Source of the DNA: a bacterium
GTDB lineage: Bacteria > Bacillota > Clostridia > Oscillospirales > Acutalibacteraceae
Length of the DNA: 37,858 nt
Assembly (NCBI GenBank): GCA_020624805.1
Contig: JAHKVW010000002.1
Coordinates: 1-37,858 of the forward strand
Reading direction: 5' to 3'
Shown: positions 8,179 to 29,422 of the stretch, piece after piece
How the letters are laid out: each line of letters begins with the position of its first letter
Position numbering within the stretch: the first letter of the stretch is position 1
The notes under the pieces: generated by a model
Databases searched by the model: none
What the model saw: only the letters and a program-made list of their open reading frames with translations
What the model was told of the DNA's origin: nothing
Translations under genes and position numbers: made by a program

Positions 8179-8688
8179 ATGAACGATCGGAAATTTGAGT
8201 CATTTTATGCGGAATACTACGATAGGGTATTCAAATGTATTCTGAAAAAAACGGGAAATTTTCACGCGGCGGAGGATCTGACGATGGACACCTTCACCGC
8301 CTGTTACAAGCATTTTGACCGTTATGACGAGACCAAGGCGTCGCTGGGCACATGGGTGTTCACGATCGCTTCCAATAAGCTGAAGAACTATTACCGCAGT
8401 GATCAGAGCTTTGCGGAGCTACAGGATTACTCCGCCGTGGATGACGGGATGGAGGACGCCGTGATCGAGGCACAGCATCTCGCCGAGCTGCGCGATGTGC
8501 TTGCAGACGCGCTCGAAACGCTGAACGAGGTACAACAGCAGGTGATCGTGCTGAAATACTTCAAGAACAAGAATTCCAAGGAGATCGCGCAGATCACCGG
8601 ATTGACGTCCGATAATGTGCGCGCGATCGCCTCAAGAACGGTCAAAAAACTCAAGGATTACTTTGATACGCGACAGATCGCGTATTAA
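8179..8688 (+). CDS. ECF-type RNA polymerase sigma factor
   Basis: The product is 169 residues. Region 2 spans about residues 8-75 (YAEYYDRVFKCILKKTGNFH, AEDLTMDTF, GTWVFTIASNKLKNYYR) and region 4 about 108-165 (LNEVQQQVIVLKYFKNKNSK, EIAQITGLTSDNVRAI). The start is uncertain. ATG 8179 has AGGATGAG upstream at a suitable distance. ATG 8170 and TTG 8152 are also in frame. No anti-sigma gene lies next to it. It precedes the NHLM exporter by 41 bp and could direct transcription of the cluster, but no repeated ECF-type promoter was found to prove this. Confidence 0.88.
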   Translation: MNDRKFESFYAEYYDRVFKCILKKTGNFHAAEDLTMDTFTACYKHFDRYDETKASLGTWVFTIASNKLKNYYRSDQSFAELQDYSAVDDGMEDAVIEAQHLAELRDVLADALETLNEVQQQVIVLKYFKNKNSKEIAQITGLTSDNVRAIASRTVKKLKDYFDTRQIAY

Positions 8689-8729
8689 ATGCGGTTGGAC
8701 AGAAAACAGATGGGCGGAACAGGGTAAAG

Positions 8730-10886
8730 ATGAAGGGATTTGTCAAAACACCGACGATATTACAGATGGAAGCGGCTGAATGCGGAGCCGCTTCTCTTGC
8801 TATGCTCATCATGTATTACGGCGGACATGTCCCGATGGAAAAGATCCGCGTCGACGCGGGCGTATCGCGCGACGGCAGTAAGGCGGGCAACCTGATCCGC
8901 GCCGCGAAGAAATACGGAATGGAAGGTCACGGCTACAAAAAAACCTTTGCCGCTTTGATACAAATGCAGCCGCCGTGTATCATCCTGTTGAATTACGGTC
9001 ATTTTGTCGTTTTTGAAGGGACAAAAAAGAACTGCGCCTATCTCAACGATCCCGCGGTCGGTCGAAGAAGATTGACGCTCGAAGAACTCGAGGCGATCTA
9101 CGGCGGCGTGGTACTGACTTTTACTCCGACCGGGGATTTCAAAAAAGAAAAAACAAAAAGCTCGCTGAAAGATCTGTTTGCGCGCGCGGAGGGTTATCGC
9201 AGGGATTATTTCGCGGCGCTGGTTGCGGGTCTGCTGACGGCGGGTGTCTGTGCGGCGATCGTGACGCTGGTCGAGCGGTTCATCACACTGAGAACACTTC
9301 CGCACACGGCGGACGGCCCGGGACAACCGATGTGGATCGGGGAATTGATCTGTGTGCTGCTGATCGTGCTGGAGATCCCGCTCTTATGGCGGCAGAGTAT
9401 GATCCGCACGCGGCTGCGCTATCGGGTGGCGATGCCCTCGGCGCGGCGTTTTGTGACAAAGCTGCTGCGGCTGCCGCTGAGCTTTTATGAACAGCGATAT
9501 CCCGGTGAGCTGGTGCAGAGAACGAATAAGAACAACGCGACCGATAATTTTGTCACCGGCAGAGTGCCGGACGTCATTTTCGGATTGGTCACTTCCGCGG
9601 TCTTTTTCATCATGATGTGCGTCTATCAACCGATCCTCGGACTCATCGCGGCGGTCTTTTTTGTGATCCAGCTCCTCGCGATGGCGATCCTGTCAAAGAA
9701 AGCGGACAGCGCGTCGATCGGTCTGAGCGCGGAGGAAAACCGTATGGCGGGCAAGCTGTATGCGGGACTCAGGATCATCGGTACGCTGAAGGCGTCGGGC
9801 GCCGAACGGGATTATCCCGAAAAAATCAAAAAACAACAGGAAGCGATCAACCGCGCGGAGTATCGACTGATCCGGACACGGCAGCTCACCGGCGCCGCCG
9901 CTTCACTGCTTCGTTATGTTCTGCTGGTCATCCTGATCGTACTGGGCGGCCATATGGTGGCGTGGGATATGATTACGCAGTATATGATGACGCATGGCGA
10001 ATATGTCGCCTTTATGGTGTTGTTTGTCGCGTTCTTTGCGCCGATCGATACCATCGTGCCGATGATCACGCGCGTCGGTATCATCAAAGCGGATATGGAA
10101 TCCGCGAATGATGTGATGCAGTATGAGGATGACGAGATCTATCACACCGGCTCATTCGGCAAGACGCAGAAGCTGGAGGGTGAAATCATCCTCAAGCATA
10201 TCGATTTTGCATACAGCTCACTGGACAAGCCGTTGATCGACGATCTCTCACTGAAGATCGACCCCGGAACGATGGTGGCGATCGTCGGCGCGACCGGCAG
10301 CGGTAAATCGACGATCGCGAAGCTGATCAGCGGGTTGTATCGGCCGCGCAAGGGTGAGATCCTTCTGGACGGGAACGATCTGACAAAGATACCGAAAAGC
10401 GTCATCAACGCGAGTATCGCGACGGTGAGCCAGAACATCACACTGTTTTCGGGCACGGTACGCGACAATATCTCGATGTGGAATTCCAAGATCGCGGATA
10501 CGGATATCGCCAACGCGGCAAAGGACGCTTGTTTATATGATTTTATCCGCAACAAGCCCGATGGCTTTGATACAGTGATCAAGGAAAACGGCGCCAACCT
10601 TTCAGGCGGTCAGCGTCAGCGGATCGAGATCGCCCGCGCGCTGGCGGTCAATCCCTCCATCCTCATCATGGATGAGGCGACAAGCGCGCTTGATCCGATC
10701 ACGGAGGACAGGATCATCAGGAATATTCGTCGGCGCGGGTGTACCTGTGTGATGATCGCGCATCGACTCAGCGCGGTACGCGACAGTGATACCATCGTGG
10801 TGATGGAACACGGAAAGATCGCCCAACGCGGCACGCATGAAAAGCTCGCCGGTATGGAGGGGCCGTATCGTGAGTTGATCCGTTAA
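8730..10886 (+). CDS. NHLM-type peptide exporter with C39 peptidase domain
   Basis: The product is 718 residues. The N-terminal C39 Cys peptidase (about 1-140) has C18 in QMEAAECGAASLAM, a His near residue 91 in YGHFVVFEG and an Asp in LNDP. It would cut the leader from a peptide while exporting it. A membrane domain follows (about 155-450). The nucleotide-binding domain has Walker A GATGSGKS near 520, signature LSGGQ near 622 and Walker B LIMDEATSALD near 645. The layout matches the first ABC protein of NHLM bacteriocin systems. It is followed by the partner ABC gene, and the only evident substrate in reach is the 60-residue peptide at 14047. No HlyD-like adaptor is present. Confidence 0.93.
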   Translation: MKGFVKTPTILQMEAAECGAASLAMLIMYYGGHVPMEKIRVDAGVSRDGSKAGNLIRAAKKYGMEGHGYKKTFAALIQMQPPCIILLNYGHFVVFEGTKKNCAYLNDPAVGRRRLTLEELEAIYGGVVLTFTPTGDFKKEKTKSSLKDLFARAEGYRRDYFAALVAGLLTAGVCAAIVTLVERFITLRTLPHTADGPGQPMWIGELICVLLIVLEIPLLWRQSMIRTRLRYRVAMPSARRFVTKLLRLPLSFYEQRYPGELVQRTNKNNATDNFVTGRVPDVIFGLVTSAVFFIMMCVYQPILGLIAAVFFVIQLLAMAILSKKADSASIGLSAEENRMAGKLYAGLRIIGTLKASGAERDYPEKIKKQQEAINRAEYRLIRTRQLTGAAASLLRYVLLVILIVLGGHMVAWDMITQYMMTHGEYVAFMVLFVAFFAPIDTIVPMITRVGIIKADMESANDVMQYEDDEIYHTGSFGKTQKLEGEIILKHIDFAYSSLDKPLIDDLSLKIDPGTMVAIVGATGSGKSTIAKLISGLYRPRKGEILLDGNDLTKIPKSVINASIATVSQNITLFSGTVRDNISMWNSKIADTDIANAAKDACLYDFIRNKPDGFDTVIKENGANLSGGQRQRIEIARALAVNPSILIMDEATSALDPITEDRIIRNIRRRGCTCVMIAHRLSAVRDSDTIVVMEHGKIAQRGTHEKLAGMEGPYRELIR

Positions 10887-10942
10887 CCGAAATACAGAGC
10901 CGACAGGCGTCGGAATGACAGCGACAGAAAGGAGTGAGCCGA

Positions 10943-13183
10943 ATGGATGATCAAAATCAGATCCGTCTGACAAGCGGACAGGTCTATATTACCGAAAACG
11001 GACAGGACGCGTTCATCGTCCGTTCGGGCGTGCTTCTTATCTATGTCGTGACCTATCAGCGCGGCAATTTCGGTAAAAGAGTGTTTTTATATGAAGCAAA
11101 ACAGGGTGAGGTGATCCCCGGCTTTTGCTACACCGATATGAACTATGAGAACCGTCGCTTTCTCTTTACCTCGCGCGCTGACGCTGTGTTGGGGATCATA
11201 CGGGGCGGTTCGACCAAAAAGCTGAGAAAAGGATTTTTATCCAAGCTGGAGATCGACAGCGCGTACGCGGACAATTTCAATGAGGCGATCACCGACAGCA
11301 TCCGTACCGCGGAAGCAACGAACGAGGCGTTCATCGTCCGTTCCGAGTCCATGCGCGGCGAGATCGAACAGGATATCCTGCAGCTGGTACAGGAGAAGAA
11401 GAAAAAGAAATCCCGCCGGGAGTCGTTTGATCAAAAGCTGTTTATGCCTGCCTGTCGGCTGATCCGCATGAGCATTAACAGCTTAAAACCGCTCGCGAAC
11501 ATCGGTATCATCGTGGCGATGCTGACGGCGGCGCTGCTGTTACAGGTACTGCCGTTCGGTATTTTGAAGCTCAGGGATTTTACAGCATTTGAAGGTGATC
11601 GGGGAGCGGTACCGATGCGGATGATGCCGATGATGCTGTTGATGCTCATGCTGATCGCCGTGATGGGATCGTCCGTGATACGCAGTGTCGGGGAGCTGAT
11701 CGCGGGCAGAGAAGCGTCACGCCTGTCCGATCAGGCACAGCAGCAGGTGATCCGACGGTTCTTCTCCCTGCAATTCCGGTTTTTCAGAGAGCATGAATCC
11801 GCTGAGACCGCCAATATGATGCTGCATGTCAAGCAGGTGGTCGCGAAAGTGCTGACGGGAACACATTCGTTCCTTTTTGCGGTCATCGCGACAGCGGCAT
11901 GCTTTGTGATGTGCCTTTGGTTATCTGTGATGATGACGGTGGCGGGAGCGATATTGCTGGCGGTGTTGATGACGATCTACGTGGTGTTGATGCGCACGGC
12001 GCTGCGATATCGCGAAAAAGCGCTGCGGCATGATAACCGCTCCGGATCATTGATGTACCAGTTCATTACCGGTATCGTCAAGATCCGTCTTTCGGGCGCG
12101 GAGGAAAAGGCGACCCTCGAGTATCTGCGCTCCTTCTCAAAGAAAGAGGACGCCGAAGAGGTGCGCTATCAAAACGTACATTTTTCACATGATGTATTCT
12201 CGATCGCGGTGATCCTGTTTGCGGCGATATTCTGTCTGATCAGCGGTTGGTCGGCTGAGTCGTTCCGACCGGAGCGATGGGCGGCGTTTTTGTGCTCCTT
12301 TACATTGATGGCGTCCTATACCGCACTGGCGACGCGCTCGTTTTTGAGCATCGGAGAGGAATATGATTTTATCCGTAAGTTGTCGGAGGATCTGGATCGA
12401 TACGCTGAGAACACGGCGGATTCCGACCGGACGGCGCCGCCTGTGCTCGACGGAGAGATCGATATCCGCGGATTGCGTTTTTCTTATGATGAAGGAGATC
12501 ACGGGGTATTTGACGGACTGGATCTGCACATCGGCGCGGGCGAGTATGTCGCGATCGTCGGAGAGTCCGGCTGCGGAAAATCGACGCTCTTTAAGTTGTT
12601 GTTGGGATTTGAGAAACCCGATGACGGGGAGATCACCTACAGCGGACAGCCGCTGTCAAAAACCGACCTTTACCTACTGCGCAAGCAGATCGGCGTCGTC
12701 CTGCAGGACGGTAAACTGATCTCGGGCACGATCGAAGAAAATATCGCGGTGACCAAGCCCGACGCGACAAAGCAGGAGCTGCGCAAAGCGATTGCCGCAG
12801 TGGGCTTGGAGAGGGATCTGGACACGATGCCCATGGGTACGCAGACGGTGTTGACCGAGGACTCGGAGATGATCTCCGGCGGTCAGCGGCAAAAGATCCT
12901 GATCGCGCGCGCACTGCTGAACGATCCGAAGCTGTTGTTCTTTGATGAGGCGACCGGCGCGCTGGATAACCTTTCACAAAAGGTGATCACCGATACGCTC
13001 AAAGCGACCGACGCGACCCGCGTGGTGATCGCGCACCGCCTGAGCACGGTCGTCGACTGCGATCGGATCATCGTATTGGGCGGCGGAGGGATCGCCGAGG
13101 AGGGCACCTTTGACGAGCTGATGAAGAGAAAAGGTGTTTTTTATACCATGGCACAGCGCCAGATGCTGGTCACAGATGAATAA
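10943..13183 (+). CDS. NHLM-type ABC transporter, second subunit (no peptidase domain)
   Basis: The product is 746 residues. The N-terminal 160 residues are a non-membrane domain specific to this family (LTSGQVYITENGQDAFIVRS), in place of a peptidase. Membrane helices lie at about 175-420. The nucleotide-binding domain has Walker A GESGCGKS near 539, signature ISGGQRQK near 643 and Walker B LLFFDEATGALD near 665. This is the usual second ABC protein of NHLM systems and probably pairs with the C39-containing subunit. ATG 10943 is chosen because AAAGGAG ends 9 bp upstream. A GTG at 10934 abuts that site. The intergenic stretch 13184-13320 has no clear terminator. Confidence 0.92.
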   Translation: MDDQNQIRLTSGQVYITENGQDAFIVRSGVLLIYVVTYQRGNFGKRVFLYEAKQGEVIPGFCYTDMNYENRRFLFTSRADAVLGIIRGGSTKKLRKGFLSKLEIDSAYADNFNEAITDSIRTAEATNEAFIVRSESMRGEIEQDILQLVQEKKKKKSRRESFDQKLFMPACRLIRMSINSLKPLANIGIIVAMLTAALLLQVLPFGILKLRDFTAFEGDRGAVPMRMMPMMLLMLMLIAVMGSSVIRSVGELIAGREASRLSDQAQQQVIRRFFSLQFRFFREHESAETANMMLHVKQVVAKVLTGTHSFLFAVIATAACFVMCLWLSVMMTVAGAILLAVLMTIYVVLMRTALRYREKALRHDNRSGSLMYQFITGIVKIRLSGAEEKATLEYLRSFSKKEDAEEVRYQNVHFSHDVFSIAVILFAAIFCLISGWSAESFRPERWAAFLCSFTLMASYTALATRSFLSIGEEYDFIRKLSEDLDRYAENTADSDRTAPPVLDGEIDIRGLRFSYDEGDHGVFDGLDLHIGAGEYVAIVGESGCGKSTLFKLLLGFEKPDDGEITYSGQPLSKTDLYLLRKQIGVVLQDGKLISGTIEENIAVTKPDATKQELRKAIAAVGLERDLDTMPMGTQTVLTEDSEMISGGQRQKILIARALLNDPKLLFFDEATGALDNLSQKVITDTLKATDATRVVIAHRLSTVVDCDRIIVLGGGGIAEEGTFDELMKRKGVFYTMAQRQMLVTDE

Positions 13184-13320
13184 ACAGTTCTCAACCGAAT
13201 AAGGGAGAAATACCCTGCTCGGGCATCCGGAAAGAATATTGAAAAAAACTCGGATTCTATGTCACACCATCACTCCCTGCGTGTATATATAGACAGAAAG
13301 ACACAAAGGACGGGATCAAA

Positions 13321-13794
13321 ATGACAAATATGATATGGAAAAAAACAGCGCCCTTCACGGCGGTTGCCGTACCGGTTTTGATCATCGGCGGCGTCCTCGT
13401 GAAAACGATCGGCAAATCCGAAAACATTCTGACGGTTTACACCCGCTGCGCGGTTGTGATCATCGCCGCGATCATCGCATTTGTCTGTATCCGCATATTT
13501 AAAATGGTTCCCGATGACAATATCATCCTGCCGCTGAGGATCGGTTTTTGTATCGCATCCTTTATTGCGATCGGTCAGAATCTTATGTTTATGGCTCGCG
13601 GCTTGTATCGCGCTCTGACGATATACTCTACCGCGGGTATGACCGTGGCGGCGATCGGTATTTTTCTGGTTATCTACGCGATCAATACATGGATCACCGT
13701 CAATGGGATCTGTATTTTTATCGATATACCGTGGGGGCTGATCGCGCCGGTGTTGATCGCCTTAGCAGGGGCAAAGCTGATCACGATTTGGTAA
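13321..13794 (+). CDS. Small polytopic membrane protein, unknown function
   Basis: The product is 157 residues with about five predicted membrane helices (for example AVAVPVLIIGGVLVKTIG, CAVVIIAAIIAFVCIRIF, GMTVAAIGIFLVIYAI). No catalytic motif is seen. An AAAGGA site lies upstream. It stands between the NHLM exporter pair and the peptide gene. Possible roles are immunity to, sensing of, or help in export of the peptide. All are inferred from position only. Confidence 0.75.
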   Translation: MTNMIWKKTAPFTAVAVPVLIIGGVLVKTIGKSENILTVYTRCAVVIIAAIIAFVCIRIFKMVPDDNIILPLRIGFCIASFIAIGQNLMFMARGLYRALTIYSTAGMTVAAIGIFLVIYAINTWITVNGICIFIDIPWGLIAPVLIALAGAKLITIW

Positions 13795-13897
13795 TGATAA
13801 GACGGCTGTAAACGCATCCACACAGAGCCTTCGGTTTTTGGATCGATGAGATACTGATTTTCGGCAAAACGCCGTAAATGAAATCGGTATGATTGCT

Positions 13898-13941
13898 GTC
13901 GGAATACTTTTGATGACGATCAAAAACCCTCGTATTCCGAC
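13898..13941. promoter_or_regulatory. Long two-part hairpin before the peptide promoter
   Basis: GTCGGAATAC (13898-13907) pairs perfectly with GTATTCCGAC (13932-13941). Inside it TTTTGAT (13908-13914) pairs with ATCAAAA (13919-13925). It lies 33 bp before the -35 box of the peptide promoter. It may be a regulator binding site or a stop for transcripts from the exporter genes, although no T-run follows. Confidence 0.5.
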
Positions 13942-13973
13942 GGCGGCATCGATAAATGAATTGCACAAAGCTC

Positions 13974-14002
13974 TTGATAAATGAACAACAGCCATGTATA
14001 AT
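13974..14002 (+). promoter_or_regulatory. Strong promoter of the peptide/STAS/TIR unit
   Basis: TTGATA (13974-13979), 17 bp, TATAAT (13997-14002). Predicted start is near 14009, with an AAGGGTG site before the ATG at 14047. A private strong promoter is usual for precursor peptides, which are needed in excess over the exporter. Confidence 0.8.
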
Positions 14003-14046
14003 AAACTTGTATCTGTCCGATTTGCAGAAAGGACAAGGGTGAAAAC

Positions 14047-14229
14047 ATGAAAAAATTCGAGAAATTTTTAACTAAAATGAAGGACAGTCAGGAGTTCGCT
14101 CCGGATGACAGACTCTCTCGTTTGATCGGCAAATTCGACGAGGAAGAGTTGTCGATGGATGAACTGGACAATATTGCGGCTGCCGCAAAACCTGACTTTT
14201 TCTATCGGAATTCCGAACAGGAAGATTAA
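14047..14229 (+). CDS. Putative exported precursor peptide with triple-Ala leader motif
   Basis: This is a 60-residue acidic peptide. Its leader end, ELSMDELDNIAAA (residues 34-46), fits the double-glycine register position by position: L35 (-12), E39 (-8), L40 (-7), I43 (-4), and Ala at -3 to -1 where GG/GA is usual. Cleavage after A46 would free a 14-residue core, AKPDFFYRNSEQED. The core has no Cys or Thr and only one Ser, so it is a poor target for lanthionine or similar chemistry, and no modifying enzyme lies nearby. The C39 exporter upstream is the natural partner. It may be a secreted signal and not a toxin. STAS and TIR genes follow in the same transcript. Processing is inferred. Confidence 0.75.
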   Translation: MKKFEKFLTKMKDSQEFAPDDRLSRLIGKFDEEELSMDELDNIAAAAKPDFFYRNSEQED

Positions 14230-14238
14230 GAGGATAAC

Positions 14239-14601
14239 ATGATCAGACGTGTAATGAACAACAATGTTCTGGAAATATACGAGGATGAGGCTCTCGTCAT
14301 GTCTTTATCGGAGACGATAAAGGATGGCGGGATGTCTGTGCATATATCGGGCGCGATCAAAAGCACGGTGGCGCATGAACTGGAGGATGAGCTGATGGCG
14401 GCGGTGTCGTTTTGCCGAGCGATCAGCGTCAATATGTCACAGGTCACGTTCATTTCCGGAAACGCGCTGCGCTCACTGCTGACGGTGCAGCGGGTAGCGG
14501 ATGAGTCCGATATATCGCTGGTGATCGAATCCCCGTCCGACGAGGTACTTGCCGTCTTTGACGAAAGCGGCTTTTCGGATCTGTTGGAGATCCGCGGTTG
14601 A
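14239..14601 (+). CDS. STAS-domain protein (anti-anti-sigma-like)
   Basis: The product is 120 residues, with a STAS domain at about 30-118 (VHISGAIKSTVAHELEDEL, VNMSQVTFISGNALRSLL). STAS proteins of the SpoIIAA type bind anti-sigma factors or partners in signalling complexes. Where SpoIIAA has D-S-S-G, with the phosphorylated Ser, this protein reads S-G-N-A, so the usual switch residue appears to be missing. It begins 10 bp after the peptide gene with an AGAGGA site. No anti-sigma kinase gene is in the window. It may be a structural adaptor for the TIR or kinase proteins nearby. Confidence 0.8.
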   Translation: MIRRVMNNNVLEIYEDEALVMSLSETIKDGGMSVHISGAIKSTVAHELEDELMAAVSFCRAISVNMSQVTFISGNALRSLLTVQRVADESDISLVIESPSDEVLAVFDESGFSDLLEIRG

Positions 14602-14652
14602 TTTGACCGAGTCGGATAACACCGCGATGCTATGATTGAGTGAGGAAATGAG

Positions 14653-15630
14653 ATGAAGCGATGTTCTGTACGTCCGTATGAGGGTGCGGACAACTATATT
14701 TTCGTCAGCTATTGTCATCAGGATAAAAAAGAGATATATCCGATCATCGAGCGACTGGCGCGCGACGGATACAGGATATGGTACGATGAAGGGATCGACC
14801 CCGGTGCGGACTGGCCCGAGGTGATCGCCGACCACCTGAGCCGCTGTGCGCTGTGCATCGCGTTTTTGTCGGATAACGCCCTGAATTCCCACAATTGCCG
14901 GCGTGAGATCAACTTTACCCTCCTCAAAAGAAAACCGCTGATATCTGTTGCGATCGAAAATATCAGCATGTCACCCGGTATGCAGATGCAGCTGTCGTCA
15001 GCTCAGTCGATCGCCAAGGTCGGGATGACGGACGATGAGTTTTTTGCGACGCTGTACCGTTCGCCTTTGTTGTCATCCTCTATGGGAGCGCCTGATTACA
15101 GCATCTATGTATCGAGCGCGGCGGACTATGAGAACGAACCGATCGAAGTCGATGGAAAAAATGCTCCGTCGTTCAGCGATATGTGGTTTTCCGAGCATGA
15201 AAACAGCGCGGGCTACGAAAGCCGCAAGGTCAATGTGACCTATCACCCCACTTATCGTCCCGATCCGCCGACGATCAGGGCTTCCGCTCCGCAAAGCAGC
15301 GGGCATACAAAGGTTTACTCAAAGGAAGCATTCGTCAGAGAAGCCAGCCTCAAGCCCGTCAGGATGAAAAGTAATATCAAAAAGGTGGAAGAGACGCAGG
15401 CGCCACAGGTGAACGACAGCCAAAGACATTTAAAGTGGCTGATCCCTCTCATGATCGTTTTAATGGTTTTGGCACTCGCTCTGAGTATCGTAGCGGTGGT
15501 GTTGAGCCGCTCACCCGGCTCGGTCAAATCACAGCTTTCCCATGCGGGCGGGATCGTCCGTCAAAATGATATGCTCAACCGCAAAGAAACGGTAATCGAC
15601 GGCGTTTACGGTGAGCTGACCAATACTTAG
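14653..15630 (+). CDS. Membrane-anchored TIR-domain protein
   Basis: The product is 325 residues. The N-terminal TIR domain (about 12-135) shows IFVSYCHQDKKEIYPIIERL, then GYRIWYDEGIDPGADWPEVI, then SHNCRREINF, whose Glu is at the place of the catalytic Glu of NAD-cleaving TIR enzymes. A long, probably unfolded linker follows, then one membrane helix at about 260-284 (LIPLMIVLMVLALALSIVAV) and a short outside tail. The TIR part should face the cytoplasm. It may consume NAD or make a cyclic ADP-ribose signal, or act only as a scaffold. It is third in the peptide/STAS transcript, which ends at a strong terminator. Confidence 0.88.
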   Translation: MKRCSVRPYEGADNYIFVSYCHQDKKEIYPIIERLARDGYRIWYDEGIDPGADWPEVIADHLSRCALCIAFLSDNALNSHNCRREINFTLLKRKPLISVAIENISMSPGMQMQLSSAQSIAKVGMTDDEFFATLYRSPLLSSSMGAPDYSIYVSSAADYENEPIEVDGKNAPSFSDMWFSEHENSAGYESRKVNVTYHPTYRPDPPTIRASAPQSSGHTKVYSKEAFVREASLKPVRMKSNIKKVEETQAPQVNDSQRHLKWLIPLMIVLMVLALALSIVAVVLSRSPGSVKSQLSHAGGIVRQNDMLNRKETVIDGVYGELTNT

Positions 15631-15686: not shown

Positions 15687-15717
15687 CGCCGTCGCGGCAG
15701 ATCGCGACGGCGTTTTT
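15687..15717 (+). terminator. Intrinsic terminator of the peptide/STAS/TIR unit
   Basis: CGCCGTCGCG (15687-15696), loop GCAGAT, CGCGACGGCG (15703-15712), TTTTT. A perfect 10-bp GC-rich stem, 57 bp after the TIR stop codon. Confidence 0.92.
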
Positions 15718-15854
15718 GCCCCGAGCTAACGGGCTGGGAATGAACCGAGATCGCGTTACATGAAACACCCTGAATGCGGAGATAATAGCTTTGGGATCCA
15801 CCGCCGCTTTACGGCGGAAACAGCGGATTGATCGGCAAAAAGCGGGTGAAGAAG

Positions 15855-16358
15855 ATGCGACTGTCAAGAAAACTGATCGGTACGGCGGGGGTGTTTGCGG
15901 CGGCACTCATCCTGTATCCGATCCTGCATGAATGCGGACATCTTGCCGCCGCCCGGATCACCGGAGGCGGCGTGGTCGGATTTGAGTTGTTTTCGCGTTT
16001 ATGTGTGGAACTGCGCATACAGGGCAGTGAGAAGAGGATGGTGTTCGTCGGCGTATGCGGCGGATGGTTTCCGATGCTTTTGCTGCTCTTGCCCGACAGG
16101 GGGAGCTTTTATCTGTATGCCGTGAAGCTCGCGACGGCGGCGGCAGGCATTTTTTGCGCGGCAGAATCGGTTGGATACGCCGTGCAGTATCTGCTCGGCG
16201 GTACGGCAGACGCGATGGATGACGCGGTGATCCTGCTGCGGATGTTTGACGGAGAAAAGGAGACGGTTTTTCTCGCTCTCGGGATCCAGGCAATGGCGTC
16301 GGCAGGGTTTATGATCCGAACACATCCGCTCAAAAGGACGGTATGGTTCTTAGAATAA
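15855..16358 (+). CDS. Small M50-like membrane metalloprotease
   Basis: The product is 167 residues. The end of the first membrane helix holds H25-E-C-G-H29 (ILHECGHLAAARITGGGV), an HExxH zinc motif typical of site-2-type M50 peptidases with the active site in the membrane. At least three more hydrophobic segments follow. A GG-TADAMDDAV stretch near 118-130 could supply the third ligand, but this is not certain. ATG 15855 is preferred, with GTG 15846 and TTG 15828 as in-frame alternatives. It lies between the TIR unit and the FHA unit, where a membrane protease could cut the peptide, the kinase or a tethered regulator. That role is inferred. Confidence 0.65.
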   Translation: MRLSRKLIGTAGVFAAALILYPILHECGHLAAARITGGGVVGFELFSRLCVELRIQGSEKRMVFVGVCGGWFPMLLLLLPDRGSFYLYAVKLATAAAGIFCAAESVGYAVQYLLGGTADAMDDAVILLRMFDGEKETVFLALGIQAMASAGFMIRTHPLKRTVWFLE

Positions 16359-16451: not shown

Positions 16452-16480
16452 TTGACAGATATTTGTATGAATGTTATAAT
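16452..16480 (+). promoter_or_regulatory. Perfect consensus extended -10 promoter of the FHA gene
   Basis: TTGACA (16452-16457), 17 bp, TGT-TATAAT (16472-16480). Full match in both boxes plus the extended -10. Expected start is near 16487, leaving a leader of about 219 nt. Confidence 0.88.
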
Positions 16481-17551: not shown

Positions 17552-17561
17552 TGAAATCAAT

Positions 17562-17594
17562 AGCTGTTTACATCTTCGCGTGTAAACAGCTTTT
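17562..17594 (+). terminator. Hairpin terminator after the FHA gene
   Basis: AGCTGTTTACA (17562-17572) pairs perfectly with TGTAAACAGCT (17581-17591), followed by only four T. It is probably a partial terminator, allowing some readthrough into the phosphatase and kinase genes. Confidence 0.65.
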
Positions 17595-20372: not shown

Positions 20373-20388
20373 AGGACGGTGACACATA

Positions 20389-20985: not shown

Positions 20986-21011
20986 TCAAGGTCTGCAAAC
21001 GTATATGATCA

Positions 21012-21079
21012 ACGATACCGCTTAACGAGCGTATCGTACCGCAAGTGTTGTCCGTGTGCAGAATGAAAAAGCGCACGGA
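21012..21079 (+). other. Two hairpins in the gap between membrane-protein genes
   Basis: ACGATAC (21012-21018) pairs with GTATCGT (21031-21037). TCCGTGTGC (21051-21059) pairs with GCGCACGGA (21071-21079) with one mismatch or wobble. There is no T-run after either, so these are more likely RNA processing or stability elements than terminators. Confidence 0.4.
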
Positions 21080-21107
21080 TGACGCCGACCCGATAGGGGT
21101 GATAGAA

Positions 21108-21629: not shown

Positions 21630-21724
21630 ACGAATGCTTTGTCCGAAGAAGATATCGAAGCCGAAACGGTTTGACAGGAAACAAACAGAGGGTCAGGATA
21701 GATCCGGTTTTAAAGGGGAGTAGA

Positions 21725-24700
21725 ATGATGAAAAAATCTCATGGAAATTCGCTGTTTCTGAGAACGTTGGCTCTGGTCATGGCGATCGGGTTGTTACTCG
21801 GCGCTGTTCCCGTTGCCGCTGTAGAGAGTCAGATACAGGCAGAGGATGAGAGCACTTCCTCTGCGGTAGAAGAGATTCCCGCACAGGAAGAAACAAAAGG
21901 CGGCGATGATTTGATCGTACCAGATGACGCAGGCGATCATATCGTCAAAGAGACAACGCCTGAAGAGGAAGAAGGAGCAGGCGTTTTACTTGAATCGAAG
22001 GGTGATACCTTGCTTGCCGAAACGGCAGAGGCGCCCGCCGGTGTTGATATCACCGTTAACAAGGGCAGCTACAAGAGCTCTTCGGATTATTACTATACCG
22101 GTATCGACAGCATCGTGATCACTTTTACCAAGCCGGAAGATCTGCCTGCCGATAAAATCAAGGCGGCCTGCTATAGAAATATGACCGAAACACAGGATTA
22201 CAGCGCTATTGAGTGGTGGAATAATTATTCTAATCTTGATGATTTTATCACTGTTTCTATTGATGGTAGTAATTTTGTGACGATCACAATGGATTTTGAA
22301 GGTTTCGCGGCAGAGAAATACGACAGCGACTTTACCGACGAAAAAGCCGACGGTCTCTTTACGCTTGTATTTCCTTACGACGCGGACAGCAGCGGTGATC
22401 CTATTATCGATGACAGCAGACAGTTTGTGATCTCCAACAAAAAGCCCGTTGTGTCACTCGATTACACAGACGGCGGCAAGTGGGTCTCGAACGAAGGAAA
22501 GATCACCTATACCGTTACGGATGCTGTATCCGGTTTGGCGAAGGTCTATCTCTGGAAAGCCAAATATGACAACTACAACAGATCCAGTTATGCTTCGGAT
22601 ACCTTTAAGATCACAGAGTCCGGTCAATACTATCTTACCGCAAAGGATAACCTCGGAAACGTTTCCGAAAAGATTGACGCCGGTGAGATCAATATTGAGA
22701 AAAAAGATCCGGAGATCAGTGAGGATGATATATCCTATCCCGAAGAAGCGGATCCCGATGACCCCAACGCATGGTCGTCGGATCCGGTCGACGTTACTTT
22801 CAAGGTAACAGACGGCGGCTCCGGCATGAAGCAGGTCAAGGCAAAGGACAAAACGCTGAATCCGAACGATAAAGGGGAATATACCCTGCGCTTTGATTCA
22901 CAGGAAGATATCGAAGTCACCATGACCAGCAACGCGGGCAGAGAGGCAAAACAAAAGATCGCCGCGCCGCATATCGACAAGGAGAATCCGTCCAAGGACA
23001 GCATCACGCATATCGGCTTCTCGACCAAAGAGGCAAATATGTTTGTACATATTTTGACATTCGGCATCTACAGCAAAAAAGAACTGAAGATGACGGTCTA
23101 TACCGAGGATGAATCCCCGATCAAGGAGATCGCGATCGCAGGCAACGAGCTGATCACAAAGGACGGAGAGATCGTCAGAAACGATAAAGAATCTGCCCAG
23201 ACCTTTACGATCCCCCTCGGCGACAGCGTGGATAACAGCGATTTTTCCGATATCAACATCCAGTTGACGGATATGGCGGGGAATCAATCCGACGCTAAGA
23301 TCACTTGGAAGGATATCAAGAGATTCACTGTCAAAGATGATAACGTCGAAAAGAGCTTTGATAATATCGGCGAAACCATCAAGGAAATGGTTAATACCAA
23401 GCTGACGCCCGATGTTACCGATTTCAAGGTGACCGGTGAGACCAGCGAGGATAATCCCGGCTATTACCGCAACAACGTCAAGGTCACTGCCGATATCAGC
23501 GAGCCGCTGACCGGTATCGAATCCGCCAAGGCGTATTTCGGTACGGAAGACGATTTTACATTTGACGCGGTAACAAAGGAATATCAGGAAAAAGAATCCG
23601 CTAAGGATATCAGCGATAAGCTGAAGGATTCCAAGAAAAGCGGCGATAAGATCGAGGGCAAGCAATTAGAGTATAAAATCGAGCCCGACAGCGATCTGCC
23701 GACCGGCAAGTATCTCGTACTCATCAAAGCGACGAACAACAGCGGCAATGAGATGCAGAAGGTCAAGGAATTCTATGTCGATAAAGAAGCACCTGTTATC
23801 ACAGTGACTTCCGCTCCCGAAACATGGACAGATGACAACAAGCTCACCTTTACCGTCAACGATGAGCCGAGCGGTGAGGGAGCTCACAGCGTCGGCATCG
23901 CAAAGGTGACCGTCAAGGGTGACGCTGATACGCCCGAGACTTCTCTTGAGGTCAAAAATGACGGAAAATATGAGTTCACCCCGAAGGCGGGTGAGAGCTA
24001 CACGCTCAAGGCAGAGGATCTCTTAGGCAACAAGGCGGAAGAGGTAACCATAGCTTACAGCAACATCAAATTTGACGATAAAGCTCCCGTTGTCGGCGAT
24101 TTCAAGTATTATGACAAAGACGGTAAAGAGATGAACGCCGAGGATCAGTGGAGCGATAAGGTCACCGTTAAATTTACGATCAACGATAAGTTCGACGGAA
24201 AAACGCTCTCCGGTTTTGATTTCAACGACACAAGCACCTTTGTCATCACAAAGAAGGATACAACAGACGTTCTGGATATCACCGTAGATACAAAAGCGGG
24301 CGAAAACGATACATATGTATGCTCGTTTGAAGTTCCTCACAACAACACGGCTTACTCGATTAAGGTCAAGGATAAAGTCGGCAACTATACCGCGATCAAG
24401 GATACCAAAACGATCAACCGTGATGAGTCGGAACCGGTTATTGACAGAATCGACTTCCAAAGCGTTGTTTCGGGAAAAAGATTCGGCGCATACGGTAAAG
24501 CCGTCGAAGCAACCGTCTATGTAAAGAGCGGATTTAAGGCTCCCATTACCAAGATCCAGTTAAAAGACGGGAATAAGGATCTTGAGGCGAAAGAAGATAA
24601 GATCAGCTATCATAACGATGATTTGACTTATTCAAAGACTTTCTATATCCCGGTTTCGGATGCTACTTCTTGTGAAGATTTAGGCGTATATGCGGAATCC

Positions 24701-27700
24701 GCGGCAGGAGTTCCGATCAAAACCGGCGCCGATAAAGACGGTATCGTAAAGATCGCGAATATCCGTGTCTATATGAACGGCGCGAATTTTGAGAAAGCAT
24801 CGGATTTCTTTGAGGCGGTATCTAAGGAAAGCGGTCCCGCTGTCAGAGTCGAATATGCGTTCACCGCGGATATGCAGGGAACCGCATACGGATACGCTCA
24901 TGATGAGGGCGGAAACGTTATCGTCGGTGAAAACGGTCTGGCAACATTCAGCTACAAGGTCAACGACGCTATAGCGGGTGTAAAAGACGATTCGATCACG
25001 GTATACTTTGATTCCTTGGATAAGTTTACCCTAAAAGACGGAAAGTACTATCCGAAAACCATAGACCCCGACAAGCTGCCGAGGAAGATCGAACAAGGTT
25101 TTTCAAAACAGACAAACGGTGATAATGAAAATACGAAAAACACCGAAAGCACCGGTGAATATCAGCTGAAAGATATCAAAGAAAGCGGCACCTACGTATT
25201 GTGTGTAACGGCAGACAACCTCTGTGATACAGAGAGCTTTGATTCCGTATTGATCGATATCGATAATTCGGCGCCTGTGATTTCGGATGTTCAGTATCAG
25301 TGTGAAAGCGGCGATCCTACTACAGGCTGGGTCAATAAGGACGTCAACGTTATCTTTAAGGTCACCGATCTGCCGGGTGAGAAGAACGGTGGTGTAGATG
25401 AAGAATCCATTACCGTTACAGGTGAATTGGACGGAGAACCCTACACCGTGACCCCTCTCGGTGAAAATAAGTACAGCTTTACACCGCCGTACGCGCAGAA
25501 GTATATGATCAACGCAAAAGATATGTACGGCAGTGTAGCAAAAACGGTCACTACCGAAAAGATCAAAATAGACACAGAGGATCCGCATGTTACGATTCCG
25601 GATCTGAGTGACTATCAAGATGATTGGTCTGCAATGAAAAAAGAAATTTTCTTTACGGTAGATGATCTCTCTGATTACTCGAAATTTACGGGAGAAGAAA
25701 AAGAGCTGTCCGGAATCAGCTCCGTTGTCGTTAAAAAAGAATCGAGTACAAAACCTTATGATTTAGTGCCTGCGGAAGTGGTAAAAACCGCAACAAGCAC
25801 GACCTATAAGTTTATCGCGGACGGCTATGGTAATTACCGGATCACTGTTATTGACGCTGCCGGAAACAGCATCACCAACAATGAGCTTATGGAAATTGCG
25901 ATCGACAGTCAGCCGCCGAAGATCACTCATGTTGAGTTCTCAAGACATAACATGAGTACCGGCGATAAAATCCTGAATTTCCTGACATTCGGTATCTTTG
26001 CCGGCAATCAGGTGGATATGACGGTCAAGGCAATTGATGAAGATCCTTCTTCCGAAATCGATGATATCACCCTCAGTGTGAATGAGACCAAAAAAGCAAA
26101 AACTGTCAGCGGAGGAAAGCCCACAAAATCCGAAGCAACCGTAGTATTCACGTTAAGCCCTGAGACCATCGCCAAAAGCGATACATTTAAAATAAAAGTT
26201 GCCGATAAAACTGAATTAGCAAGTGAGATTTCGTTAGCTCAGGCTTATGCGAATGGTATACTGAAGGTCCCGAATGAATTAAAATTTAAAGATGAGATTT
26301 TTGATTTTAAGGTTTCAGACGAAAAACCTGTGATCACGGGACCGACTATCACCGCGAAGGAAGGTGTAGTTGAGAAAACCGATAATACAGGAGTACGCTG
26401 GTTCAGCGGTGATGTTGACATTGATTTCGGTGTAGAGGATACAACTACCTATCTTCATGCAATCGACATCAATATGAATGGTCAATCGATTCAAGATAAA
26501 TCGTATGATAAAGATGGAAAAACGATTCCCGCATATTATACGAAATTCGATGAACCGGAATCCGCAGATAATCCATCTACTCCGGTAAAGAGCAAACAAA
26601 TCAAGATCGATTCTTCTAAATTAGGTAATATCGAGAACAAAAACAGTCAAAACGACTCCGGCAACAAACTGGAGATAAAAGCGTGGGGTAATAACGGTCT
26701 GGACAGTTCCGCCGATGCGTTCTATCAGATCGATGATGTCGAACCCGATATCACCTCGTTCAGCTTCTCCGATACGATCAATCCTTCTTTAGAGGAAGAA
26801 GACAAAGAAACTGGAAAAGAGATAGACAAGGCGCTGGCTAAGGGCGGCATTCAGTATAATACCATGACCTCCGACAACTATGTCTACTTCTTCCGGGACG
26901 ATGCGAAGGTCACGGTTTCCGCAACAGATGATCACAACGGAATAAAAGGCTCCGGCGTCAGAGAGATCCACTTCTATGTGGTCGGCAAGAAATCTGCCGA
27001 CGCGGAAGTAAAGGTTTATGGTGAGGATGATTACGAGCCTGTGATCCAAAAAGACAACTTCGGCAACATGAGTGCGACGTTCACGATCAAGGCAGGCTTC
27101 AAGGGCAGTATCTTTGCTTACGCGGTCGACCAGGTCATGAATACAGGTAAGCAGTACAGCCCGAACAATCTTGTCGTAGAGAATGCGAGTATCCATAATT
27201 CCTCCAGTGGCGCGGATATCACGATCAACACCGAATCCGTCGCGACGGATAACCACGATTATCCGCTGTATGATCGCGACGTCAACCTCACCTTTACGAT
27301 CGAGGATCAGTTCTCAGGTATCAGAAGCGTATCCTACTCCTGCATCGGATTGGAGTCGAGCGCAAATCTGGAAGGTTCTGCGTATGTCAACCGTGACGGC
27401 GACGTCAGCGATGACCTCGGAGAATGGGATGTCGCATCCCGCGACAAGAATCTGGTTCTCAAGATGAGCAGAACCATCACGCTGGACGGCGATGGAGATT
27501 TCAACTCCAACAGCATCGTGATCAAGATCTCCGGCTATGACTGCTCCGGTTATCAGATCGCCGAAGAAACGAAAACCATCAGCATCGATACCACCGATCC
27601 GGTGATCGAGGTCAGCTACGATCCCGTCAAGGGCTCCGGCAACACCTATGGAACCGATGAATATGAGTATTATAAGAACAGCCGCACCATGAACGTGACT

Positions 27701-29422
27701 GTTCTTGAGCGCAACTTCGACCCGAGCGGTTTTGACTACAGCGGCATTCTGAACCAATACGTCAGCGGCGATGTTCCCTCGCTGATCGCCGGTGAGGATT
27801 GGGATACCGACTATTCCGACTATACGGATAACTCGTCACATTCCTGTTCCTTTACCTTTGCGAACGACGGCGACTATGATATCACGCTCAACTGTACGGA
27901 TGAAGCCGGCAACAAGGCGGAAGAGTACATCGGCGAAAAGTTCACCATCGATACCATCGACCCGACCGTTGAGGTCAGCCTGAGCGGTACCGCGAAGAAC
28001 GGCAAGTATTATAACGAAACGGTCACCGCGACGGTCACCGTTCATGAGCACAACTTCGCCGAGGGCGACACCTATGTCACCTTCACGCCGAAAAACGACA
28101 TTGACACCAGCTATGATAAGTCAAGCGCCACACCGAGTATCTCCGGTTGGTCCGGCAGCGGCGATACCCATACGACGACCATCGACTTCTCCTCTGACGG
28201 TACCTATTCCTTTACCTTTGATTATAAGGACAAGGCACTGCGTGAGGCGCAGCAGTTCAGCCAGACAGAATTCGTTGTCGATAAAAACATCGATAAGCTG
28301 ATCAAGTTCATCGACGTTGAAAACACAACAGCCTATGACGGCAAGATCGCGCCGAAGGTCAGCTTTGACGATACCAACCTCGATACCGCGACCTCCAGCA
28401 TGACCCGTATCAGTCTGGATACGACAGATCTCAAACAGAGCGCGTCACCCGCATCGAACCTCAAGCACGCGATGAATCCCTCGAGCGGTTCCAGCAGAAC
28501 CGATGCATATGAGGACTTCCCGCAGGAGCTTGTCAACGACGGCATCTATGAGTTTGAGGCAAGCGGTACCGATATGGCAGGTAACTCCAAGAGTGAGAAG
28601 ATCATCTTCTCGGTCAACCGTTTTGGTTCGACCTTCATGCTCAGCGCACAGAGCCGTGAATGGGTCGATACCGGCTATGTCAATAAGCAAAACCAGCTGG
28701 ATGTGATCGAGATCAATGTCAATGAGGTCACAGATCAGAGCGTATCCGTAACGCGCAACTCTCAAACCGCGACGCTGAACAAAGATAAATTCAAGTTCTC
28801 TTACACCGGTGATAATGAGAATTGGTACCGTTATGATTATAATGTATATGACAGCAACTTTGCGCAGGACGGTGAGTATACGGTGACCGTATCCTCGACC
28901 GATACCTTCAAGAAGTCGGTCAGCAACCGTACCGCGGTGAATGACGAAGAAAAGGGCATCGAAAAGAACTGCCCGATCTCCTTTGTCATGGATACCGATG
29001 ATCCTATCATCAAGATCGACGGCGTTGAATCCAACACACCTTACGGAGAACCCGAAAAGACCGTCAGCGTCATCTGCGTGGATGCAAACATCGATTCCAA
29101 GACGCTGGTGATCAAGGATGACGATAATGAGCTGATAAGCGGATCGGATTATACACTGGAAGAGCATGCCGGTGAGTTGGATATCGAATTGATCGTCGAC
29201 AAACCCGGTAAGCACTCCCTGTCGGTATACGTAGCCGATAAGGCGACGAACGGCAACGAGGATGAGGTAACCAACTTTGAGTTGAACGCGTCTATCTTCA
29301 CGCTGTTCTTCCACAACACGGCAGCGGTCATCGCCACAGCTATAGCTCTGGTCGCATTGATCGCGCTTGCGGTATTCCTGATCCTCAGAAAGAAGAAAAA
29401 GGACGCCGTGGTAAAACCATAA
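21725..29422 (+). CDS. Giant Ig-like repeat surface protein with C-terminal membrane anchor
   Basis: The product is 2565 residues. It starts with a signal peptide (residues 1-36, LALVMAIGLLLGAVPVAA), then a Glu/Thr-rich stretch. At least ten Ig-like modules follow, recognisable by their starts (DKEAPVITVTS, DDKAPVVGDF, DNSAPVISDV, DTTDPVIEVS, DTIDPTVEVS) and internal GSG or GNx-Ser turns. One membrane helix lies near 2530-2555 (VIATAIALVALIALAVFLIL), with a KKKK tail and no LPxTG sortase motif. It would stick far out of the cell on a membrane anchor. ATG 21725 or 21728 both fit the AAAGGGGAG site. As last gene of the kinase unit it could be the ligand-binding or adhesive partner. A terminator follows. 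Confidence 0.9.
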   Translation: MMKKSHGNSLFLRTLALVMAIGLLLGAVPVAAVESQIQAEDESTSSAVEEIPAQEETKGGDDLIVPDDAGDHIVKETTPEEEEGAGVLLESKGDTLLAETAEAPAGVDITVNKGSYKSSSDYYYTGIDSIVITFTKPEDLPADKIKAACYRNMTETQDYSAIEWWNNYSNLDDFITVSIDGSNFVTITMDFEGFAAEKYDSDFTDEKADGLFTLVFPYDADSSGDPIIDDSRQFVISNKKPVVSLDYTDGGKWVSNEGKITYTVTDAVSGLAKVYLWKAKYDNYNRSSYASDTFKITESGQYYLTAKDNLGNVSEKIDAGEINIEKKDPEISEDDISYPEEADPDDPNAWSSDPVDVTFKVTDGGSGMKQVKAKDKTLNPNDKGEYTLRFDSQEDIEVTMTSNAGREAKQKIAAPHIDKENPSKDSITHIGFSTKEANMFVHILTFGIYSKKELKMTVYTEDESPIKEIAIAGNELITKDGEIVRNDKESAQTFTIPLGDSVDNSDFSDINIQLTDMAGNQSDAKITWKDIKRFTVKDDNVEKSFDNIGETIKEMVNTKLTPDVTDFKVTGETSEDNPGYYRNNVKVTADISEPLTGIESAKAYFGTEDDFTFDAVTKEYQEKESAKDISDKLKDSKKSGDKIEGKQLEYKIEPDSDLPTGKYLVLIKATNNSGNEMQKVKEFYVDKEAPVITVTSAPETWTDDNKLTFTVNDEPSGEGAHSVGIAKVTVKGDADTPETSLEVKNDGKYEFTPKAGESYTLKAEDLLGNKAEEVTIAYSNIKFDDKAPVVGDFKYYDKDGKEMNAEDQWSDKVTVKFTINDKFDGKTLSGFDFNDTSTFVITKKDTTDVLDITVDTKAGENDTYVCSFEVPHNNTAYSIKVKDKVGNYTAIKDTKTINRDESEPVIDRIDFQSVVSGKRFGAYGKAVEATVYVKSGFKAPITKIQLKDGNKDLEAKEDKISYHNDDLTYSKTFYIPVSDATSCEDLGVYAESAAGVPIKTGADKDGIVKIANIRVYMNGANFEKASDFFEAVSKESGPAVRVEYAFTADMQGTAYGYAHDEGGNVIVGENGLATFSYKVNDAIAGVKDDSITVYFDSLDKFTLKDGKYYPKTIDPDKLPRKIEQGFSKQTNGDNENTKNTESTGEYQLKDIKESGTYVLCVTADNLCDTESFDSVLIDIDNSAPVISDVQYQCESGDPTTGWVNKDVNVIFKVTDLPGEKNGGVDEESITVTGELDGEPYTVTPLGENKYSFTPPYAQKYMINAKDMYGSVAKTVTTEKIKIDTEDPHVTIPDLSDYQDDWSAMKKEIFFTVDDLSDYSKFTGEEKELSGISSVVVKKESSTKPYDLVPAEVVKTATSTTYKFIADGYGNYRITVIDAAGNSITNNELMEIAIDSQPPKITHVEFSRHNMSTGDKILNFLTFGIFAGNQVDMTVKAIDEDPSSEIDDITLSVNETKKAKTVSGGKPTKSEATVVFTLSPETIAKSDTFKIKVADKTELASEISLAQAYANGILKVPNELKFKDEIFDFKVSDEKPVITGPTITAKEGVVEKTDNTGVRWFSGDVDIDFGVEDTTTYLHAIDINMNGQSIQDKSYDKDGKTIPAYYTKFDEPESADNPSTPVKSKQIKIDSSKLGNIENKNSQNDSGNKLEIKAWGNNGLDSSADAFYQIDDVEPDITSFSFSDTINPSLEEEDKETGKEIDKALAKGGIQYNTMTSDNYVYFFRDDAKVTVSATDDHNGIKGSGVREIHFYVVGKKSADAEVKVYGEDDYEPVIQKDNFGNMSATFTIKAGFKGSIFAYAVDQVMNTGKQYSPNNLVVENASIHNSSSGADITINTESVATDNHDYPLYDRDVNLTFTIEDQFSGIRSVSYSCIGLESSANLEGSAYVNRDGDVSDDLGEWDVASRDKNLVLKMSRTITLDGDGDFNSNSIVIKISGYDCSGYQIAEETKTISIDTTDPVIEVSYDPVKGSGNTYGTDEYEYYKNSRTMNVTVLERNFDPSGFDYSGILNQYVSGDVPSLIAGEDWDTDYSDYTDNSSHSCSFTFANDGDYDITLNCTDEAGNKAEEYIGEKFTIDTIDPTVEVSLSGTAKNGKYYNETVTATVTVHEHNFAEGDTYVTFTPKNDIDTSYDKSSATPSISGWSGSGDTHTTTIDFSSDGTYSFTFDYKDKALREAQQFSQTEFVVDKNIDKLIKFIDVENTTAYDGKIAPKVSFDDTNLDTATSSMTRISLDTTDLKQSASPASNLKHAMNPSSGSSRTDAYEDFPQELVNDGIYEFEASGTDMAGNSKSEKIIFSVNRFGSTFMLSAQSREWVDTGYVNKQNQLDVIEINVNEVTDQSVSVTRNSQTATLNKDKFKFSYTGDNENWYRYDYNVYDSNFAQDGEYTVTVSSTDTFKKSVSNRTAVNDEEKGIEKNCPISFVMDTDDPIIKIDGVESNTPYGEPEKTVSVICVDANIDSKTLVIKDDDNELISGSDYTLEEHAGELDIELIVDKPGKHSLSVYVADKATNGNEDEVTNFELNASIFTLFFHNTAAVIATAIALVALIALAVFLILRKKKKDAVVKP

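Follow-up and report, generated by a model that had tools for sequence, protein, structure and literature searches.

A peptide-exporter island with a TIR gene beside a kinase-phosphatase-FHA cassette in an Acutalibacteraceae genome

The 2024 survey of type VII secretion system (T7SS) subtypes, in the sections dealing with its new subtypes, describes kinases, phosphatases and FHA proteins among their components and raises control by phosphorylation as a possibility (PMC11217815). According to the same sections, subtype T7SSe comprises a kinase (TseD), a phosphatase (TseF), an FHA protein (TseJ), the single-transmembrane (single-TM) proteins TseH and TseK, the single-TM component having an unstructured cytoplasmic part, and TseI, which corresponds to the large Ig-like protein TsdI, having a signal peptide and a C-terminal TM segment (PMC11217815). 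T7SSe and, named alongside it there, T7SSd are the type VII subtypes closest to the locus analysed here, a 21-kb plus-strand gene run in a 37,858-nucleotide stretch (the window) of contig JAHKVW010000002.1 from an Acutalibacteraceae genome (GCA_020624805.1; 2.52 Mb, 139 contigs, 99% complete). We consider it reasonably likely that this run consists of two gene modules lying side by side, an exporter island (8152-15630) carrying genes for a peptide exporter, a leader-type peptide, STAS and TIR, and a kinase-phosphatase-FHA cassette (16706-29422).

Other described systems resemble parts of the locus. In type VI secretion, as far as the source describes the PpkA-TssL-Fha relay, the kinase marks a threonine of a membrane protein on which the FHA protein docks; unlike in the cassette, there is one named site, not an array, and the machine is unrelated (PMC3953482). 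In the part of the work that treats MST2 and SLMAP, several tail phosphothreonines of the MST2 linker bind the single FHA domain of SLMAP and bring in the phosphatase PP2A, the system being eukaryotic and the array lying within the kinase itself (PMC5663475). The exporter half is similar to the NHLM/NHLP bacteriocin export clusters (TIGR03794/03796/03797) in its two ABC subunits, the first with a C39 domain, and in a HlyD gene that scores over the cut-off in a related island (L088); it differs in that the window's ABC pair lies under the equivalog cut-offs, that no RiPP (ribosomally synthesized and post-translationally modified peptide) enzyme was seen, that the predicted cores are short and Cys-free, and that STAS and TIR genes are attached. 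The TIR protein shares the fold and a conserved Glu with SPARTA TIR-APAZ and other NADase TIRs, but has no Argonaute partner in the window, a TM or FHA partner taking its place. GarA and OdhI carry a Thr motif just before the FHA domain, as does the FHA protein of the window, but unlike the latter they are soluble metabolic regulators; the OdhI model gave a weak match in the family scan of the window proteins.

The genes that the preliminary description of this DNA had listed are all present at or near the positions given there, as confirmed by family scans and open reading frames. That description took the series for unbroken and its halves for a linked set, and the synteny largely undoes this view, as each half recurs without the other and adjacency is rare. 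The kinase half was found at 20 other fetched loci (9 family and 11 genus genomes) without the exporter half, and exporter, peptide and TIR gave no match at E<=1e-3 in the fetched flanks of these loci. One STAS-like match was seen among them, in G123, 32% identical and ~6 kb upstream of the FHA gene; this stretch (L077:14595-14891, minus strand; 32% to the STAS protein of L088) has no exporter or TIR nearby. The order PP2C-kinase-TxxL protein-giant was observed at 9/9 fetched family loci, where relatives of the giant also occur (9/9), and in 11 of the 13 fetched genus genomes (L080 ends before the giant), the other two, G197 and G163, having FHA genes without a kinase. An FHA gene stands in front of the cassette at 7/9 family loci and in 11/11 genus genomes (by BLAST); L040 has no FHA match and the contig of L046 begins at PP2C. 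These counts leave out G014 (of 10 other family genomes) and G149, G202 and G207 (of 19 genus genomes with an FHA search).

The exporter half, in turn, occurs in four other islands (L088, L089, L098 and L109), none with a window-type cassette beside it. The halves adjoin only in the window and in two close relatives (L047 and L048; ABC1 90% and 84% identical), which keep the window's gene order (ECF, ABC1, ABC2, small TM protein, peptide, STAS, TIR, FHA, PP2C, TxxL protein, four-TM protein) and lack the kinase, the giant and the M50-like gene at the locus. No kinase orthologue was found elsewhere in these two genomes, the best matches being 35% (residues 5-264) and 45% (residues 3-297) identical. 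G154, found via its FHA gene, has the complete cassette between the same flanks as the window, 2-hydroxyacid dehydrogenase and acetyltransferase genes upstream and a DUF4340 gene downstream; the stretch from the acetyltransferase gene to FHA contains none of the island genes. On a 5.7-kb contig of G197, the two upstream flank genes are followed by genes for FHA, PP2C, a TxxL-type protein of 111 aa and the four-TM protein; island and kinase are both missing. The downstream flank of the window (29618-34501, minus strand) holds DUF4340, ABC_transp_aux, ABC2 membrane and ATPase transporter genes, which we take to be Gld-like; parts of these DUF4340/ABC transporter genes flank the cassette in the window, L047, L048 and G154.

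The control regions also divide the run. Promoter-like sites, which are consensus matches only (17 found in the scan vs 13.2 in shuffles), precede the peptide gene (TTGATA-17-TATAAT, 13974-14002, plus strand, 11/12 consensus, 10/12 in L089) and the FHA gene (TTGACA-17-TATAAT, 16452-16480, plus strand, 12/12), and both are conserved in the window, L047 and L048. Downstream of the TIR gene lies a terminator-like hairpin of 10 pairs followed by TTTTT (15687-15712; the hairpin scan listed it on the minus strand only, the plus-strand T run being seen on reading the sequence); L048 has a like hairpin without the T run, and none was seen in L047. Together, the two sites and the hairpin speak against the description of the series as one unit, and a single 21-kb system was rejected on the synteny and promoter results. 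There is no TxxL motif in the TIR, STAS or peptide of the window, hence no sequence link between the modules.

The cassette, entirely on the plus strand, starts with a membrane FHA protein (16706-17551; FHA 1.4e-16) that bears one DTTVLG motif preceding the FHA domain. It is followed by a Stp1/IreP-like PP2C phosphatase (17747-18613; NF033484, 173.6 bits, below the cut-off of 230), a membrane Ser/Thr kinase with the activation loop DTTCLGT (18624-20372; Pkinase 3.9e-49), a single-TM protein with four TxxL motifs, the predicted phosphothreonine docking sites, on what is presumably the cytoplasmic side (20389-20985), a small protein with four TM-like segments (21045-21629; by segment prediction and synteny) and an Ig-like giant of 2583 aa (21671-29422; Big_13 3.3e-12), TsdI/TseI-like by make-up, with an N-terminal hydrophobic segment (25-53) and a C-terminal TM-like segment (2542-2576). 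A membrane kinase, a PPM phosphatase, an FHA protein, a single-TM protein and a large Ig-like protein with a C-terminal TM segment are thus shared with T7SSe as its sections in the survey describe it; the kinase, phosphatase, single-TM and Ig-like proteins agree with the subtype by domain make-up, in the order of the T7SS-bearing loci. The differences are the absence of a WXG100 match in the window's genome, the lack of DUF6382 in the window's FHA protein (TseJ has DUF6382 and FHA, as do the FHA proteins of L043 and L045) and the TxxL array, of which the subtype description in the survey makes no mention (PMC11217815).

WXG100 (PF06013, E<=0.001) has no match in the 99% complete genome of the window. 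It was found in 11 of the 24 genomes tested: in none of the five with a window-type FHA (window, G131, G136, G154 and G197), in 8/10 other cassette-bearing genus genomes (the two without it, G211 and G162, are both <90% complete) and in 3/9 other family members. The cassette of L043 is preceded by genes for an FtsK ATPase, a YukD-like protein (below cut-off) and WXG100. In G184 the corresponding genes (FHA-FtsK ATPase, YukD, WXG100) follow past the giant, an arrangement shared by G217 and G193 as judged by gene layout and WXG100. In some family members the upstream position is taken by Tad-type genes, of which DUF5702 and A24 prepilin peptidase pass their cut-offs and the TadE-like one does not. 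The T7SSe-like make-up combined with the missing WXG100 match makes the kinase half look like an accessory set minus its engine. We propose that it is likely a T7SSe-type accessory set lacking its secretion engine and probably the remainder of a secretion-system locus. In the T7SS-linked cassette version of G184 (L079:12279-13841, minus strand), a trypsin-like protease is followed by an FHA domain in one protein.

It might be supposed that the kinase half is a decaying T7SSe relic without present function, beside which the island merely landed, as would suit the lack of WXG100 in all five genomes with the window-type FHA and the graded states of the cassette, full in G154 and the window, without kinase, giant and motifs in L047, L048 and G197. 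We consider this unlikely: the 12/12 promoter-like site is conserved in three species, dN (non-synonymous changes) is well below dS (synonymous changes) for FHA and PP2C in the codon comparison, the TxxL array is intact, with copy-number variants in many strains, and the frame of the giant is open over all its 2583 aa.

The exporter island, also on the plus strand, begins with an ECF sigma factor gene (8152-8688; Sigma70_r2/r4), whose product is 91-93% identical in L047/L048, 44% in L088, 53% in L089 and 40% in L098, none being seen in L109. NHLM-type ABC subunit 1 with its C39 peptidase (8730-10886; Peptidase_C39 1.6e-30; TIGR03796) and subunit 2 (10934-13183; TIGR03797) are followed by a small protein of no family with ~5 TM-like segments (13321-13794; 67-70% identical in L047/L048, 33% in L089). 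The lack of a HlyD adaptor claimed earlier holds for the scanned window proteins and not for three related islands, which have a HlyD-type gene, in L088 over the NHLM HlyD cut-off and in L098 and L109 by BLAST. The lack of a peptide-modifying enzyme was borne out among the scanned window proteins, and with no Cys in any predicted core a RiPP cluster was rejected.

The island is rare and patchily distributed. ABC1 has a match in 11/100 genus genomes at E<=1e-100, and the TIR-FHA profile in 6/161 at E<=1e-50, all six of these matches (window included) adjoining exporter and STAS. In the order sample 12/394 genomes match this profile, the window's included; the ten loci fetched from it outside the genus (G452, one of the 11 other matching genomes, was left out) yielded one island only, that of G550 (L098). 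A plasmid or phage origin was rejected, there being no plasmid match for the TIR-FHA protein and one viral contig (L108), which matches part of the TIR domain at 47%. Yet another NHLM-type exporter (L092:8529-15340) is preceded by a STAS gene whose product has the usual phospho-Ser site and followed by a gene for a double-Gly leader peptide.

C39 leaders are marked by an LSxxELxxI motif plus small residues at positions -2/-1. The 60-aa peptide of the island (14047-14229; 93% identical in L047/L048, 61% in L089) has both, as LSMDELDNIAAA agrees with this pattern, and C39 cleavage is predicted after LSMDELDNIAAA, leaving a predicted core of 14 residues without Cys. Its family comprises 18 clusters in the protein database, all 18 matching a leader pattern that was written for this family; the predicted cores are 13-16 residues long and Cys-free in 18/18. 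The peptide has dN/dS values of 0.035/0.50 against L047 and 0.028/0.78 against L048, and constraint is clear on the leader (silent vs changing codons 10:1 and 13:3, respectively). In the order sample the peptide profile matches 3/394 genomes (window, G550 and G074), the peptide gene of G074 standing directly after an NHLM-type exporter and an ECF gene. Six peptide clusters equal TIR clusters in the size of their longest contig (P0003/P0022, P0005/P0025, P0007/P0024, P0015/P0030, P0016/P0088 and P0017/P0105), therefore these pairs are probably on the same contigs. The peptide is likely the cargo of the exporter; in Faecalibacterium, the part of a report dealing with the MAM leader protein proposes its export by an adjacent C39 transporter (PMC12184118).

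The STAS gene (14239-14601; PF01740 2.3e-11) adjoins TIR in the window, L047, L048, L088, L089, L098 and L109. The window's STAS protein has Gly at what we take to be the position of the usual second Ser of the phospho-site, which makes classical STAS phosphorylation doubtful. The TIR protein (14653-15630; TIR_2 1.3e-19) is a predicted NADase-like effector, as suggested by sequence and model. Glu85 of its NCRRE motif, presumably the catalytic Glu, is invariant in 27/27 aligned proteins; the structural model has block means of 78-97 pLDDT (predicted local distance difference test) over residues 1-160 (overall mean 69.4), and its best match in the fold search is SPARTA TIR-APAZ (E 4.4e-7), a PDB sequence search with the TIR profile giving no match. 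The PADLOC models give weak domain matches only for the window's TIR (best 1.8e-5) and no match for STAS or peptide; for the kinases there are strong matches to PD-T4-6 and further Ser/Thr-kinase models (window 2.5e-56, L109 6.3e-81), which may reflect only the shared kinase domain. The part after the TIR domain varies, being TM-like in the window (258-289), L047 and L048, FHA in L088 and L109, RCC1-like in L089 and LRR in L098. The window's TIR has 601 matches in the database; of the 120 listed, 103 have an FHA domain fused to TIR. In the genus, a full-length profile match to TIR-FHA is found in G184 and a domain scan adds G1015; the matches obtained from the order sample (394 genomes, E<=1e-40) and from the class sample (391 genomes, E<=1e-60; G941 left out) include no full-length fusion.

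The island could also be a simple cluster for a bacteriocin or pheromone, with STAS and TIR serving self-protection or regulation and no phosphothreonine input. The leader with its ELDxI and the short core would suit such a cluster, as would the double-Gly peptides of L088 (the second one there) and L109 and the island of L098, in which neither FHA nor kinase was found. We give this explanation a low probability, as the FHA fusion is present in 103 of the 120 TIR matches listed and kinases lie inside three of the four other islands: in L088 with PP2C, in L089 with an RCC1-like part and in L109 with PASTA. The window, L047 and L048 have no island kinase of their own. The double-Gly precursor of L109 (L109:8743-9060), in an island with TIR-FHA and the PASTA kinase, is 105 aa long, and its hydrophobic core sets it apart from the peptides with short cores.

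The preliminary description joined the exported peptide, the kinase-FHA pair and the TIR effector into one circuit. As a general arrangement, a TIR coupled to FHA and a kinase beside a peptide exporter is supported by gene content: in two other islands TIR-FHA stands beside a kinase, one only distantly related to that of the window, and in another a kinase is present but no FHA. For this window the claim is not supported. One integrated relay here, the exported peptide being sensed by the kinase and TIR recruited through FHA, would agree with the conservation of the adjacency across three species, with the retention of FHA and PP2C next to TIR where kinase and giant are gone, and with the other islands that hold TIR-FHA and a kinase together. 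It is quite unlikely and finds no support in the synteny, given the separate promoter-like sites plus hairpin, the absence of the kinase from two of these three species, a cassette that exists elsewhere without the exporter, and a TIR without a docking motif.

What looks new here are the TxxL repeats as a phosphothreonine array for the FHA domain. FHA domains follow a pT+3 rule for docking, and the repeats are predicted to form such an array. The repeats reported earlier proved real, the window protein having four vs 0.55 expected (p 0.002). Among the threonines in the tails of 20 TxxL proteins encoded at kinase-bearing loci, 108/313 (34.5%) have Leu at T+3 vs a background of 5.6%, and Leu never exceeds 10.7% at the other offsets from -6 to +8. 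All 20 proteins have at least one motif, and in 18 the motif count exceeds that of shuffles at p<=0.05; L042, outside this count, has two ETTVL motifs on reading by eye. When 15 TxxL proteins were aligned (24% mean column identity), the only invariant columns were M1, G43, T165 and L168, the last two being the Thr and +3 Leu of the last motif. The motif is present in 45/45 database homologues, which came from a profile of motif-bearing proteins and are in part the same proteins as the first set; in 27 representatives of them Leu is at T+3 in 134/432 (31%) vs a background of 6.8%, with a +2 shoulder of 13.9%. The TxxL pattern also stands in the linker before the FHA domain in 22/22 FHA proteins scored, and 20/21 cassette kinases have an activation-loop motif (19 TxxLGT, one TTGIGT), the loop of L045 being missed by the search pattern. 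The TxxL protein has no motif in the three kinase-less relatives that keep it (L047, L048 and G197). Two database variants, P0139 and P0144, are 94% identical and one repeat unit apart (four vs five motifs), a fast copy-number change. That the repeats are a low-complexity linker without phospho-function, as their differing number between close strains and the two proteins of 20 not above shuffles might suggest, is highly improbable in view of the sharp Leu peak at +3, the invariant T and L and the absence of the motifs from three kinase-less relatives.

We propose, for the two-module reading, that the kinase would autophosphorylate its DTTCLGT loop and afterwards phosphorylate the similar sites of scaffold and FHA linker, that the FHA domain would dock on the phosphorylated TxxL sites and PP2C erase the marks, and that the giant, probably envelope-spanning, would be what is assembled or gated. 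In the island, the C39 domain would cut after AAA and a linear 13-16-residue peptide leave the cell, and the TIR would be an NADase-like effector, in most listed relatives recruited by phosphothreonine via its fused FHA domain; in the lineage of the window a TM-like segment of TIR takes the place of FHA, and a separate FHA-PP2C pair adjoins TIR. Phosphorylation, docking, export and NADase activity are all functions that we infer. As a tentative and somewhat doubtful extension, there may be a bacterial phosphothreonine code in which kinases copy their T-x-x-L-G loop onto docking arrays read by FHA domains and into which TIR-FHA is wired, a TIR that induces suicide or dormancy being under the joint control of a membrane kinase and a secreted, unmodified peptide of 13-16 residues. 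The array would be a concrete candidate substrate and reader for phosphorylation in T7SS subtypes, and the TIR-FHA family suggests that phosphothreonine can control a bacterial TIR effector. Among the papers listed in literature searches, none describes by its title a TxxL array or a TIR-FHA island, and none is by title on TIR proteins with FHA or STAS; in the portion of a study of bacterial immunity domains that bears on them, TIR and FHA are named only as alternative effector domains (PMC8195603).

Several observations weigh against this picture. The kinship to T7SSe is drawn from domain make-up and synteny, not from comparison with the published TseD-K sequences, and no FtsK-type ATPase with FHA (TseC) is found among the window proteins, the rest of the genome not having been searched. 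ABC1 reaches 781 bits against TIGR03796 (cut-off 853) and ABC2 451 bits against TIGR03797 (cut-off 709), so the NHLM identity given to the pair in the preliminary description stands by best-fitting models and falls short of both curated cut-offs. The predicted peptide core is not clearly constrained, with silent:changing codons of 1:3 vs L047 and 3:1 vs L048. Motif counts in the TxxL proteins of L041 and L046 are not above shuffles (p 0.23 and 0.22), and four other kinases (L088, L089, L109 and the second of G184) show no TxxLGT loop, that of L089 not being located. The FHA-linker motif is retained in the kinase-less L047, L048 and G197, hence it may serve another kinase or none and gives no strict tie. 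The PP2C tree suggests more than one kinase loss; one loss is nevertheless possible, being preferred by eight joined proteins from four genomes (approximately unbiased test, p-AU 0.80 vs 0.29 and 0.09), while five proteins from five genomes are compatible with one or several. The window's TIR may have become coupled again to the neighbouring FHA-PP2C pair, which stays beside TIR where the kinase is gone; the pair is also present where the island is missing (G197 and G154), and the TIR lacks a docking motif.

Between the two modules lies a gene for an M50-like membrane protein (15828-16358, plus strand; a weak match of 16 bits, under Pfam cut-offs), with no match in L047/L048 and with relatives of 26-34% identity close to the FHA operon in three genus genomes. 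Upstream of the island, at 431-2335, a TIR/nucleoside-deoxyribosyltransferase-like effector (PADLOC Effector TIR, E 3.2e-15) stands next to an AbiD/Abi_2 protein, likely an abortive-infection pair, and at 3526-5274 an ECF-type sigma factor is fused to a hydrophobic segment followed by a long C-terminal region that has no confident family assignment. At the far end of the window, the protein encoded at 34790-37336 combines CHAP, four ricin-B stretches, LRR_5 and a type I dockerin and is probably a dockerin-borne cell-wall-active protein.

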